A DNA stretch of 55,015 nt from a virus, in IMG/VR virus record IMGVR_UViG_3300023179_000134, positions 1-55,015 of that record; one strand, given 5' to 3'. The translations under genes were made by a program, and so were the position numbers. Positions 521 through 53,008 of this stretch are shown one piece after another. Every line of letters starts with the position of its first letter. Within the stretch, counting starts at the first letter, position 1. The notes below the pieces were generated by a model that saw only the letters and a program-made list of their open reading frames with translations, was not told where the DNA came from and ran no database searches.

Positions 521-2224
521 ATGCCTAAAAAACAAGAAAGTCAATTTTATTTAGGTAACCAGAATCTACCTACTGCAGATGCTACATTTGATTATGAAGC
601 ACACCCGGAATGGGTACAAGATATAGCAAGATGTAGAAAAAATATATTATATTTTTCAGAGAACTTCTTCTTTATTACAAATCTAGACGAAGGTAAGATG
701 AAGATCAAATTACATTCTTATCAAAAACGTATTTTAAGAAGTTTAAGAGATAATAGATTTGTTTGCTTATTGGCAAGCCGTCAAATTGGTAAAACAACGT
801 TGATGACAATATATGCATTGTGGATAGCCTGCTTTTTTGAAGATCAGCGTATTCTTATTGTAGCAAATAAAGAGCAAACAGCTATTAACATTTTTAAGAG
901 AGTCCGTTTAGCTTATGAGAAACTACCTAATTACTTAAAACCAGGAACTGTAGAATATGGAAAAACATCAATGTCGTTGGGAAACGGGTCTAGTATTGGC
1001 ATTTCGACAACCAGCAGTGATGCCGGTAGAGGCGATAGTTGTAATGTCCTTATCTTGGACGAGTTAGCATTTATTGACAACCATCTTGTTGAACAGTTTT
1101 GGAGTTCTGTATATCCTATTATTTCTTCTTCCAAAAAATCTAAAATATTTGTTGCTTCAACACCAAACGGTACAGGCAATCTTTTTCATGAATTGTATTC
1201 CGGGGCAATGGAAGGTAAGAATGATTGGCATGCTGAAAAAGTTGATTGGTGGGAATTCCCCGGACGCGATGAAGCATGGAAAGACAAAACAATTCGTACT
1301 TTAGGAAGTAGGGAAGTTTTTGATCAAGAGTTTGGTAATGTATTCTTACAAGCCGGTGAAAGTGCTTTAGATGAAAAACTTTTTGAAGAGATGAAATCCG
1401 AATGCATAGAACCTAATTTTATTTTTGAGGACGGAAAATATTTGATGTGGGAAGAACCAGATAAAGATCATTTGTATGTAGCCGGGGTTGACATAAGTGA
1501 GGGTGTTGGAGAGGCTGCAAGCGTAATTCAAGTTTTAGATATTACCGACCTAAGAGAAATAAAACAAGTTGCTATTTACCATGACCGTACAATAAGCCCT
1601 TACAATTTTACAACCAAGTTACATGAAATTTTAAAGCATTGGGGTTCGCCTCTTGCATTAATTGAAAGGAATAATTGTGGTGCGCAAGTAGTAGATCAAC
1701 TGAAAAATACCTTGGGGTACGAAAATATTGTTTCGTATGGTATAAAAGCTGGTCCTATTAATTTTAATAAAATAGGAGTACAAGCTCATACCAATACAAA
1801 ATATAAAGGAGTTATGAATATGAGATATTGGCTTTCAGAATTAAAAGTTTTAAAAATAAGAGATCTAAAAACACTTAATGAACTTAAAGGGTTTGTTAGA
1901 TATCCTAATGGTACGTGGGCAGCTAAGCAGGGGGTAGATAGTTGGGATGATAGGGTTATGAGCTTACTTTGGGGATTAATGATTCTTGAAAATGACTTAG
2001 TAGAAAAATATTTTGAAGTAGTAGAGTACGATTCAAATAGAAAACCATTAAAACTTAAATCATTAGATTACGGAGTCAAATATTTTGTAAATCCCGCTTC
2101 AATTTATAGCAATGAAAAACTAGGCGACGGATTACCACCTCTACCTATAGTTATACAGGGGGATAACTCTAATGAATTTGACGAAATAAAAGACTTAGAA
2201 TCTCAAGGTTGGCATAGACTTTAA
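521..2224 (+). CDS. 17: Terminase large subunit (gp17-like)
   Basis: DNA-packaging motor: an ATPase that pumps DNA into the prohead and a nuclease that cuts it. In 567 residues the ATPase half shows Walker A SRQIGKTT (86-93), Walker B VLILDE (176-181) and coupling motif ASTPNG (212-217). The nuclease half shows an acidic site with Asp324 in GVDISEG, Glu382 in LIERNN and Asp476/477 in SWDDR. Length is close to T4 gp17 (610). The start is 20 bp from the divergent gene's start. No Shine-Dalgarno sequence and no NNTAAATA at the usual spacing are present, which sets it apart from many late genes here. The small subunit candidate is far away at 16739-17203 on the other strand. Confidence 0.96.
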   Translation: MPKKQESQFYLGNQNLPTADATFDYEAHPEWVQDIARCRKNILYFSENFFFITNLDEGKMKIKLHSYQKRILRSLRDNRFVCLLASRQIGKTTLMTIYALWIACFFEDQRILIVANKEQTAINIFKRVRLAYEKLPNYLKPGTVEYGKTSMSLGNGSSIGISTTSSDAGRGDSCNVLILDELAFIDNHLVEQFWSSVYPIISSSKKSKIFVASTPNGTGNLFHELYSGAMEGKNDWHAEKVDWWEFPGRDEAWKDKTIRTLGSREVFDQEFGNVFLQAGESALDEKLFEEMKSECIEPNFIFEDGKYLMWEEPDKDHLYVAGVDISEGVGEAASVIQVLDITDLREIKQVAIYHDRTISPYNFTTKLHEILKHWGSPLALIERNNCGAQVVDQLKNTLGYENIVSYGIKAGPINFNKIGVQAHTNTKYKGVMNMRYWLSELKVLKIRDLKTLNELKGFVRYPNGTWAAKQGVDSWDDRVMSLLWGLMILENDLVEKYFEVVEYDSNRKPLKLKSLDYGVKYFVNPASIYSNEKLGDGLPPLPIVIQGDNSNEFDEIKDLESQGWHRL

Positions 2225-9165: not shown

Positions 9166-11088
9166 ATGAAAGATGACGGAACGTCTTCTATGCTTGGAGA
9201 CTCTACTTCTGTACAACAGCAACTGACTACTATTATAGGGTTACTAACTAAAAAAGGCGCTACTGAAGAGGCTATGAAACCGGGGCTACTCAAATCTCTT
9301 CAAGATAACTTGTTTCCCGAACAAAAGAGTGAAAGATCGTCATTTAGAAGATTAAAACAAAAACAAAAAACTTATCAAGGCGTGCCTATAGCAATTGATT
9401 CTATTACTCCTGATGGGAGAAGAGATATTAGGAAAGCATTTTCTAATGTTATTTCTTTTGATATAGATTACGATAAGCCTGAAAAAAAGAGCGGCCCGTG
9501 GTCTAAATTTTTCTTTTTCTTAGCATTGCTTTTTGGAGTTCTTACAGGTTTTGTAATGCAAGTAATAAAAGATGTTAAAAATATTTTTAAGTTTTTAAAA
9601 ACAAAATTTTTAAATTTATTTTCTTATTTAAGTAAAACTAAAATAGGACAGGTTGTTACCAGACTTTTCAGAAGTATAAAATTAAAATTTTTAAATGCAT
9701 TAAGAGCTTTAAAAAACCTTTCTATAGTAAAATCAATTAGATCGTTTTTTTCTTCTTTTAAAGCTAGTATTGCTAGTAAATTCAAATCATTACTATCGAT
9801 AGGAAAAGGAATATTTGATTCTGTAAGCAAGCGAGTTATGTCTATTTTTAATTCTGTAAAAGCATTTATAACAAAAATTAGAAACTTTTTTAAACCAATA
9901 ACCAGCTTTTTAAGCAAGTTTAAAGCAGGTAAAATATTATCTTTACCTATGAAATTATTTAAAAGCTTTATGGGGTTTTTTAGTAAGCTTTCTGGATTTT
10001 TTAAAATAGGATTAAAATTAGGTAGACTAGTAGGTAAGCTTTTATGGCCAATATTTGCTATTATAGAAACGGTTACAGGGTTGTTTAAAGCGTTCTCTGA
10101 CCCAAAGCTAAAAGATAAAAGCTTTTTACAAAAACTAGTAACAGGGCTTGTAGCTGGTATTGCAGGGTTTTTCGATATATTTTCAATATTTGGATTAGAG
10201 TTATTTGGGTTTGATGAAATTAGAGATAGATTTGATAAAATATTTTCCGCATTTAAGGAAGGTTTTTTTAAAGGCATATTCGAATGGGTAAATCAAATAT
10301 TTTCATACATAGTAAGCTTTTTTGGTAAAATAGTTGGCTGGGTTGTAGGGTGGTTTAATAAAGATGCTGGTAAAGCTATTACAGAATGGTCCAAAAACTT
10401 TGATTTATTTGAGGGTATTAAAAAGGTTATAGGCTCTATTGTTGGCTTTTTCAAAAAAATATTTTCGTTTGTCGACTCAGTAAAAGAATCAATCTCTAAA
10501 GCGTATGATAAAATAAAAGAATTTGCTACAGGGCTGTATGATAAAATAGTAAATTTTGTTAAAGGTATAACCGACTTTATTTCAAACCTGTTTAATTTTA
10601 GTAAAATTAAAGATTGGGTAAAAGATAAATTAGGGTTAGGCGATAAAACTAAAGAAGTTACAATAAACAGAACTACACCTGTCGGTGACTTGATGGATAC
10701 TGAAGAAAGAACGTTATATTCCGGAAGAGGTGCTTACAGGTTTGATAGACAAGATGAATTGCTTGCTGTTAAAAAAGATGGGCCTATAGCAGAAATTTTA
10801 GCTAATAGCAATAGAGAGTCTGTTACTGCTTTAAAAGCGCTTACCAATACTACAAAAAAAATAGGTGATGTTTTTGAGAAATTTTCAAAAACTGCAGTTA
10901 TAATGCAAGAAAAAGAATTAAGAATTCTTACAGAAAATTTAACACTTTTAAAAGAGTTAAAAGATAAGAATGTTGCGTCAAATGTAGTTGTACAAAATAA
11001 TTCTAATAGTAATATTTTTAGCGAAAAGACATCATCTAATATAGACCTAAGGAGAGACTTAGCTTTAAGAGGTAACTTCCCATTCTAA
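9166..11088 (+). CDS. Probable tail tape measure protein
   Basis: 640 residues. A soluble N-terminal part (1-105) is followed by a strongly hydrophobic segment (about 108-130, FFFFLALLFGVLTGFVMQV). After that comes a long run of amphipathic Lys/Phe-rich helices (about 130-480, motifs such as FFKPI, FFSKLSGFFK, VGFFKKIFSF) and a polar C-terminus (480-640) with a predicted coiled coil near 560-610. Length matches T4 gp29 (590), and the gene lies just before another tube/baseplate junction protein, as gp29 does in T4. Membrane-active helices fit a tape measure that enters the cell membrane during injection. No diagnostic motif is visible, so the call rests on composition, size and position. Confidence 0.6.
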   Translation: MKDDGTSSMLGDSTSVQQQLTTIIGLLTKKGATEEAMKPGLLKSLQDNLFPEQKSERSSFRRLKQKQKTYQGVPIAIDSITPDGRRDIRKAFSNVISFDIDYDKPEKKSGPWSKFFFFLALLFGVLTGFVMQVIKDVKNIFKFLKTKFLNLFSYLSKTKIGQVVTRLFRSIKLKFLNALRALKNLSIVKSIRSFFSSFKASIASKFKSLLSIGKGIFDSVSKRVMSIFNSVKAFITKIRNFFKPITSFLSKFKAGKILSLPMKLFKSFMGFFSKLSGFFKIGLKLGRLVGKLLWPIFAIIETVTGLFKAFSDPKLKDKSFLQKLVTGLVAGIAGFFDIFSIFGLELFGFDEIRDRFDKIFSAFKEGFFKGIFEWVNQIFSYIVSFFGKIVGWVVGWFNKDAGKAITEWSKNFDLFEGIKKVIGSIVGFFKKIFSFVDSVKESISKAYDKIKEFATGLYDKIVNFVKGITDFISNLFNFSKIKDWVKDKLGLGDKTKEVTINRTTPVGDLMDTEERTLYSGRGAYRFDRQDELLAVKKDGPIAEILANSNRESVTALKALTNTTKKIGDVFEKFSKTAVIMQEKELRILTENLTLLKELKDKNVASNVVVQNNSNSNIFSEKTSSNIDLRRDLALRGNFPF

Positions 11089-51614: not shown

Positions 51615-52133
51615 ATGAGCGAATTTATTAAACAACAACAAATATTTTCAGATGTTAATTTAAAAAACCTTACTTCAGATATTTATGTAGATGGCACAGA
51701 CAAATACATTGTAATCAACATTAATGGTATACAGAGCCTAGTAAAATATATACCACCGACGCCTACCCCCACAGTAACACCTACAAAAACACCTACTCCC
51801 ACGCCAACACCGACAATAACGCCCTCCATAACACCATCGTTTACACCTTCGCCAACACCTACTATGCCATTTCAGTTTTTAGTAAGCTCTACTAACCCTG
51901 TGTATGTAACATCATCTGTAGTACCTCCTGGTGTTTATACAAAAACATACAGCGGGACGATGTATTTTTATTCAGGTTATCTAGTAACATATTACGTTAT
52001 GCATAATGGAACTAATTGGGTTATAGCGGACGATAGCTATGTTCCAAATATTTACGACACTAACCCTTCAGCAACAAATCCAAATTATGTGCCTAGAACT
52101 GGTTGGACAAACGGTACTATAATTACAGCATAA
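51615..52133 (+). CDS. Small Thr/Pro-stalk protein with C-terminal domain
   Basis: 172 residues. The N-terminal 48 residues include DKYIVININGIQSLVKYI, similar to the end of the upstream protein. Residues about 51-83 are a Thr/Pro array ([20 protein letters not shown]). Residues about 85-172 form a globular domain with NWVIADDSYVPN and YVPRTGWTNGTIIT, resembling the GSQWVIQLL...[12 protein letters not shown] domain of the 1094-residue stalk protein. A miniature version of that architecture. Ends 5 nt before the convergent tmRNA gene's 3' end. Confidence 0.65.
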   Translation: MSEFIKQQQIFSDVNLKNLTSDIYVDGTDKYIVININGIQSLVKYIPPTPTPTVTPTKTPTPTPTPTITPSITPSFTPSPTPTMPFQFLVSSTNPVYVTSSVVPPGVYTKTYSGTMYFYSGYLVTYYVMHNGTNWVIADDSYVPNIYDTNPSATNPNYVPRTGWTNGTIITA

Positions 52134-52138
52134 AATCA

Positions 52139-52538
52139 TGGAGCTGGAGGGATTTGAACCCTCGTCTTGAAGAGTTTCATTTATAAGCCCTACAGGTTTA
52201 TCTTAATTTAAAGTTCATAATACTATAACTAAGAAAATTGTATTATATATGGTAATTTTATACGCCTGATACTAACTACCAGAACATTTCAGGTCAGGAA
52301 CTTGTAACACGCTTTACCTTACCAGCTCCAATCTACAGTAAAACGATCGAGTTAAACTAACTCGAGTTCGGCTTCAGAATCTACAAAGCCATGCTGAGCA
52401 AGGATTGCATCAGCCTCTTCTAGACTCATAGCCATGTCGAAGTTATCTTCGGCATTTAATAGTTTTGCTATTTTATACTGGACTGCCCCAGTACTTGCTC
52501 TCATAAACCACACTATTCAATCGAATCCAATCAGCCCC
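52139..52538 (-). ncRNA. ssrA: tmRNA (one-piece), atypical long tag
   Basis: The minus strand begins GGGGCTGATTGGATTCGATT, matching the tmRNA 5' consensus (GGGGCTGAttctGGATTCGAc). It ends with GACGAGGGTTCAAATCCCTC plus CAGCTCC and A. The acceptor pair GGGGCTG/CAGCTCC includes the G3-U70 alanine identity pair, and the T-arm is GAGGG/CCCTC. A P2-type helix pairs TTTATGAG with CTTATAAA. A TACTGG/CCAGTA hairpin stands at PK1, and CGAGTTA-GTT-TAACTCG (52348-52364) holds the tag stop as in P5. CCA is not encoded. About 400 nt. It rescues stalled ribosomes; in alphaproteobacteria this RNA is two-piece, here it is not. Confidence 0.9.
52352..52468 (-). other. tmRNA tag reading frame, 38 codons
   Basis: After ATA, a frame starts GCA AAA CTA (A-K-L) and stays open for 38 codons to TAA at 52352-52354. 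It encodes AKLLNAEDNF, a long acidic helical stretch, and ends ELELV. The two other frames stop within 8 codons of that point. Usual tags are about 8-20 residues ending in (L)AA; this one lacks that ending. The stop codon falls in a 7-bp hairpin, as expected for tmRNA. The exact resume codon is inferred. Confidence 0.7.
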
Positions 52539-52551
52539 ATGTCAAAGAACA

Positions 52552-52625
52552 TAGCGGGGGTTGGATTTGAACCAACGATCTCCTGGTTATGAGCCAGACG
52601 AGTTACCAGACTTCTCTACCCCGCG
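52552..52625 (-). tRNA. tRNA-Met(CAT), initiator type
   Basis: 74 nt, no encoded CCA. It aligns along its length with bacterial initiator tRNA: CGCGGGG acceptor, GAGA...ACTC D-arm with A11-U24, TCTGG-CTCATAA-CCAGG anticodon arm, GTTGG-TTCAAAT-CCAAC T-arm, CCCCGCT and A73. C1 faces U72, so the first acceptor pair is broken, the key initiator/formylation feature (C1-A72 in E. coli). Only two of the three G-C pairs of the anticodon stem are kept, with U29-A41 replacing one. It lies 13 nt upstream of the tmRNA on the same strand. Confidence 0.9.
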
Positions 52626-52638
52626 ATAAATATTTAAT

Positions 52639-52667
52639 AGTATATATACTAGCACTATATTATTCAA
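52639..52667 (-). promoter_or_regulatory. Sigma70-like promoter for tRNA-tmRNA
   Basis: On the minus strand TTGAAT (52662-52667), a 17-bp spacer and TATACT (52639-52644), then 13 nt to the tRNA 5' end. It shares the TTGAAT -35 box with the dUTPase promoter, so early expression is likely. Confidence 0.55.
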
Positions 52668-52668
52668 G

Positions 52669-52676
52669 CTTAAATA
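52669..52676 (+). promoter_or_regulatory. Late-promoter-like CTTAAATA
   Basis: Ends 5 nt before the ATG at 52682 and marks that ATG as the start of the SpeD-like gene; it overlaps nothing coding on the plus strand. Confidence 0.5.
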
Positions 52677-52681
52677 ATTTT

Positions 52682-53008
52682 ATGTTTATAAAAAAGAAAT
52701 CCTTCGTATTTAAGACTTTATCACCTATTAAAACAGTAAAAGAAAATGACAAATTTGTCAAGGATATTGCTAACCTTTTAGATATGAACATTATTTCCGG
52801 CCCACATAGTCAATATATATCTGATAAAGGTAACGAAGGTGTATCCTCAGTAACAATAATTAAAACTAGTCACATATGCGTACATTCATGGGATAGAGTT
52901 TCACCCGGTCTTATTCACTTAGATATCTTCTCTTGTAAAAATTTTAGTGTTAGTAAGATAAAATCATTTTTAAAAAAGAGATTTGAAATAGTCGGTAAAT
53001 TTAAATGA
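52682..53008 (+). CDS. S-adenosylmethionine decarboxylase-like protein (SpeD family)
   Basis: 108 residues from the ATG at 52682; an earlier in-frame ATG at 52589 lies inside the tRNA gene and is rejected. The core GNEGVSSVTIIKTSHICVHSW (50-70) then GLIHLDIFSC (76-85) matches the AdoMetDC core 'G.sGv..i.eSHi.iHtwp..gya.lDiftC'. Ser63 would be the self-processing serine, with Thr62 where Glu is usual; His68 and Cys85 are kept. Bacterial enzymes make decarboxylated SAM for spermidine, and phages also use this fold for SAM-related functions. It overlaps the oxygenase gene (ATGA), suggesting joint function. Confidence 0.75.
   Translation: MFIKKKSFVFKTLSPIKTVKENDKFVKDIANLLDMNIISGPHSQYISDKGNEGVSSVTIIKTSHICVHSWDRVSPGLIHLDIFSCKNFSVSKIKSFLKKRFEIVGKFK

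Follow-up and report, generated by a model that had tools for sequence, protein, structure and literature searches.

Characterised bacterial tmRNA tags are proteolysis signals. Among 97,179 curated tmRNAs, the commonest tag length is 10 residues (PMC11915505). Longer tags are also documented, for example in Mesoplasma florum (Mollicutes), where the tag exceeds that of E. coli in length and is read by Lon, so that re-addressing has already occurred in bacteria; the AAV tag variant is still degraded by ClpXP, at a slower rate, and a C-terminal valine alone does not exclude ClpXP (PMC9382460). In phages, tmRNAs have been listed in Bacillus phage G, Melnitz, huge phages and crAss-like phages (PMC4131195, PMC9004378, PMC7162821), that of Melnitz being a two-piece molecule (PMC9004378), and in mycobacteriophage Wildcat no lytic gene is expressed more highly than the tmRNA (PMC7474061). 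The tag of phage G (AKLNITNNELQVA) is short, while ET08, a Bxz1-type mycobacteriophage (NC_013650, 96883-97319), has an acidic tag that is long, with 25 residues (ATDTDATVTDAEIEAFFAEEAAALV), and closes in ALV. Long phage tags without Ala-Ala thus have a precedent, and the claim of the original prediction that no phage tmRNA of this kind had been described was not fully right. A literature search that reached few subscription papers found nothing on the function of such tags.

The window considered here, meaning the whole stretch of DNA that was analysed, is a 55-kb IMG/VR virus record carrying a one-piece tmRNA gene at 52139..52538 on the (-) strand, which counts 400 nt up to the discriminator A and does not encode the CCA tail. 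The Rfam model RF00023 matches 52136-52538 (-) over model positions 1-374 with 94.4 bits (cut-off 47; E 1.4e-35). The identification of a phage tmRNA in the original prediction is therefore confirmed for a full-length, one-piece molecule with the G3-U70 pair and a stop codon within a hairpin; the interval 52352-52468, which had been presented as the gene, covers the tag frame only. The same model matches 19 of 20 group records and further loci, with 82-107 bits in the relatives scored, and gives no match in one locus cut by the contig end (L224). ARAGORN misses the tmRNA in the window, yet reports it in relatives. With the bacterial one-piece tmRNA (ssrA, RF00023), the gene shares G3-U70, the T arm, helix 2, the pseudoknot-1 helix, an alanine resume codon and the stop hairpin. 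It differs in its tag, which has 33 residues and ends in LELV, whereas bacterial tags are usually short and end in Ala-Ala.

The acceptor stem is formed by GGGGCUG (52532..52538, (-)) and CAGCUCC (52140..52146, (-)), with the discriminator A at 52139 and G3 facing U70. This alanine identity pair is invariant in all 24 aligned genes, among which both partners have changed in acceptor pairs 5-68 and 6-67. The five pairs of the T arm, GAGGG-UUCAAAU-CCCUC (52147..52163, (-)), are formed in 24/24 genes and three of them have changed on both sides; in the pseudoknot-1 region, the helix ACUGG/CCAGU (52477..52492, (-)) likewise has all its pairs formed in every gene and two changed on both sides. Helix 5, a hairpin UCGAGUUA-GUU-UAACUCGA at 52347..52365 (-), contains the stop codon; its five outer pairs are formed in all 24 genes, two of them with changes on both sides. 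Helix 2, helix 5, the T stem and the pseudoknot-1 helix together supply 29 pairs; in these 24 genes, standard pairs fill 98.1% of their cells, and a shift of the partners by one column lowers pairing to ∼47%. Cells changed on both sides number 76, against 22.7 in shuffles, none of 500 of which reaches 76. Alignment to RF00023 is poor in the middle of the RNA, and for the four pseudoknots of the tmRNA family the check made pair by pair concerns one helix of pseudoknot 1. The covarying helices and the invariant G3-U70 make the RNA look functional, and the locus appears to encode a working phage tmRNA, for which alanylation, SmpB binding and trans-translation are predicted.

The tag begins at a GCC alanine codon (52451..52453, (-)), as indicated by the covariance alignments, by ARAGORN in relatives and by the loss of frame conservation upstream. 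ARAGORN begins the tag at GCC independently in three relatives (L204, L208 and L214). The stretch before GCC differs in length among relatives by one base and by two bases and contains an in-frame TAG in one of them (L326), while from GCC onward the frame is fixed. The tag frame, AEDNFDMAMSLEEADAILAQHGFVDSEAELELV, thus comprises 33 codons (52355..52453, (-)), conserved in 30 loci, and is closed by TAA (52352..52354, (-)); the stop is TAA or TAG in relatives, with a TGA one codon later in L311. Counting the alanine carried by the tmRNA, 34 residues would be added to a stalled protein. The original prediction had chosen this same, conserved frame and had given it 38 codons (AKLLN...), beginning five codons too early; the five extra codons are not kept in frame. 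The covariance alignments, which might have put the resume codon in another frame with a short tag, place it at GCC, in the frame first chosen and with 33 residues.

The stretch around the resume codon is single-stranded in ordinary tmRNAs. Here a hairpin, AUG-CCGAAG-AUAA-CUUCGA-CAU (52434..52455, (-)), is predicted to enclose the resume codon and tag codons 1-6, its inner pairs reaching probabilities of 0.98-1.0 in the folded 400-nt RNA. It is present and nearly invariant in most relatives and might affect resumption.

Relatives were collected in several ways. Of 21 matches to a degenerate pattern that spans tag residues 2-9, 19 are tmRNAs of this kind. A second probe, built from the 5′ end of the tmRNA gene only, was used to avoid selection by the tag, which matters because the first pattern fixed residues 2-9. 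This tag-blind probe brings back 24 group members, every one with this tag, including the variant beginnings AEENF, ADETF, AEVNF and AEDTF, and its few remaining matches are unrelated kinds of tmRNA with different tags. Two additional patterns contributed L355, L370 and L372, while the direct pattern GGGGCTGATTGGATTCGA recovered no relative and a broad 5′-end pattern returned mainly ordinary tmRNAs with ...ALAA tags. The total is 30 tmRNAs, that of the window and 29 from IMG/VR, all sampled contigs being fragments. Its recurrence in 29 further contigs shows that the frame is not a chance opening.

The long frame expected to be conserved among relatives is indeed kept in 30 loci, with 33 residues in 29 of them and 34 in L311, where the shifted stop gives ...LELVY. 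The long acidic tag without an Ala-Ala end, as described in the original prediction, holds throughout: LELV closes 29/30 tags, LELVY one, and Ala-Ala none. The tag therefore lacks the C-terminal Ala-Ala of the canonical ssrA degron and has 33 residues instead of ∼10. Both other frames are interrupted by stops in 25/25 distinct sequences. For these 25 sequences, which are related to one another, mean dN/dS is ∼0.18, a value that in the last codons and the first six cannot separate constraint on the RNA from constraint on the protein; over codons 10-33, outside the first search pattern, it is 0.20. Among 21 distinct tags, 19 of 33 positions are invariant, including Met7 and Met9. Part of this conservation acts at the RNA level, because some tag codons lie in RNA helices, namely the last ones in the stop hairpin and the first six in the possible resume-codon hairpin. 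The tag is nevertheless under purifying selection as a protein, and its conservation along the whole length indicates that something reads its sequence. An example peptide that can serve as a metaproteome query is DMAMSLEEADAILA.

AEDNF had been read as the beginning of an ordinary tag, and a complete ordinary tag with this beginning does exist. In a Cloacimonadota metagenome-assembled genome, the tmRNA (L373) likewise starts its tag with AEDNF and also has TTAAAT before the resume codon; its tag is the ordinary nine-residue AEDNFALAA, unlike the 33-residue phage tag. In the simplest picture, the phage gene would have kept an ordinary tag's opening residues and exchanged everything after them. 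With an exact degenerate pattern, the core of the tag was not found in the genomes of 84,980 species of bacteria and archaea. By tblastn, the tag has no match in 50,697 phage records, nor do the last 29 residues of a tag variant in 72,556 plasmid records; short queries of this type are unreliable, since a Bxz1 tag used as query found nothing although ET08 has the tag, the sequence of which was taken from the ET08 record. Copying of the tag from the end of a phage protein was considered and rejected: among 35,710 ORFs from four large phage contigs and about 100 relative loci, only tmRNAs match the tag profile at E <0.1. No credible relative of the tag was found in Pfam or the PDB, among families and solved structures. 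The helical middle segment proposed in the original prediction is reproduced with modest confidence by AlphaFold, which builds one helix over residues 11-20 (mean pLDDT 70). A prohead-protease site, [IL]xE[AG], occurs in 20/21 tags and also in 18% of shuffles, and is not claimed.

Long tags are found in other phages too, as exemplified by a 221-kb viral contig (L333) with a tmRNA at 748-1143 (-) (89.4 bits) and a 26-residue frame, GNVFNQGVSLFGGVMAPKAQMARLAA, ending in Ala-Ala. Another viral contig (L338) has a tmRNA at 9911-10311 (-) (90.2 bits) with a 27-residue frame, ANRLNELAALDFEFSLNGEAKTELALA, ending in Leu-Ala. Homology of the group's tag to those of ET08, phage G and these two contigs was rejected. 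In the case of ET08, a phage of another lineage and host, 71% of shuffles score equally well. The tag of Mesoplasma florum is bacterial and ends in NYAFA, against LELV in the group.

The carrier of the window is a T4-type myovirus. Its T4-type terminase and its tail sheath match PHROG families, and an S77 prohead protease of the T4 type is present in 9/20 group records, many of them fragmentary; terminase, tail sheath and prohead protease together place these phages in the T4 superfamily. No close isolate was found, the best matches of the sheath, including cyanophages and Pelagibacter phage Mosig, all lying below 60% identity, and the tmRNA carriers are a group of uncultured T4-like phages. 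A tRNA-Met gene (52551..52626, (-)), detected by ARAGORN and by RF00005 with 60.8 bits, adjoins the tmRNA on the same strand. It is adjoined and overlapped by an ORF at 52589-53008 of the window with similarity to S-adenosylmethionine decarboxylase (phrog_3125, E 1.6e-10), the real start of which is probably downstream of the tRNA. Directly beside the tmRNA on its other side, 51615-52133 encodes a short protein (phrog_15511, unknown function) that includes a stretch of Thr-Pro-rich repeats.

How such an RNA would work can be outlined from its parts. No SmpB gene was found in 20 phage records, many incomplete, so that host SmpB and host alanyl-tRNA synthetase are taken to serve the tmRNA. During infection, they would load the phage tmRNA, which would compete with that of the host, into ribosomes that have stalled; the ribosome would be freed and the truncated protein released with alanine and 33 further residues. 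The AEDNF-like beginning would be kept, and the Ala-Ala read by ClpX would be replaced by an acidic helical stretch and the -LELV end. In the least certain step, the tagged proteins would not simply be left unmarked but re-addressed to another receptor, either a different host protease or adaptor or a phage protein. Genes for ClpP, Lon and SspB were also not found in these 20 records, of which many are fragments, and the reader of the tag would accordingly be a host protein or a phage protein that has escaped recognition. That a working phage tmRNA both rescues ribosomes and directs the tagged proteins to a receptor other than ClpX, the second part being inferred, is the favoured reading and in our estimate an evenly balanced proposition. 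The more specific form, in which the conserved 33-residue signal is no ClpXP degron and either addresses truncated proteins to a particular receptor or causes them to act on the host, is put forward tentatively and is, taken alone, rather doubtful.

An alternative is plain degradation. Host ClpXP, ClpAP or Lon could recognise -LELV and destroy incomplete proteins as they do those tagged by the host tmRNA. Characterised bacterial tags act in this way, and the present tag is conserved as expected of a degron. The long tag of Mesoplasma is itself a Lon degron (PMC9382460), and the unrelated phage ET08 likewise ends in -LV. Against these precedents stand the absence of Ala-Ala, the main ClpX element, from the end of all 30 tags, and the fact that a degron needs few residues, yet 19/33 positions are invariant among 21 distinct tags; a plain degron is possible on these grounds but unlikely. 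The missing Ala-Ala and the acidic end would fit poor recognition by ClpX, as if the host degron had been swapped for a non-degron by which truncated phage proteins are spared while ribosomes are freed. Stability does not require 33 conserved residues, however, as an early stop would suffice, and so would a short frame, and a dN/dS of 0.18 is not what simple stabilisation calls for, which makes this explanation distinctly improbable. More generally, the strong conservation argues against the mere absence of a degron.

Conservation of the whole peptide could also be explained if the tag were functional in itself, for example by inhibiting a host protease, adaptor or defence protein or serving as its decoy, displayed on many truncated proteins. 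Its length, the AlphaFold helix at residues 11-20, its protein-level conservation and its phage specificity agree with such a role, whereas no credible similarity to Pfam families or solved structures accompanies them, and we consider it very unlikely. The invariant Met7 and Met9 might finally point to a separate small gene that overlaps the tmRNA and starts at an internal ATG, in which case there would be no tag. Conservation begins exactly at the resume codon, however, and residues before Met7 are kept too; moreover, the stop sits in a tmRNA hairpin and an ordinary bacterial tag shares the AEDNF start, so that a separate gene is improbable in the extreme.

In practical terms, these loci are a warning that ARAGORN, a common tmRNA finder, can miss or mis-start such genes. 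The reason why phages carry their own tmRNA becomes a testable question with a long, conserved and phage-specific tag that lacks Ala-Ala: if freeing ribosomes were the sole need of the phage, the host tag or nearly any tag would suffice. Identification of the protein that reads the tag would reveal a new signal of protein fate or a new way by which phages steer host proteolysis, and could give a new tag for controlled degradation. If re-addressing to a receptor other than ClpX is true, a phage lineage may have rewritten the meaning of ribosome rescue, with unfinished proteins being sent to a fate that is not the one chosen by the host.
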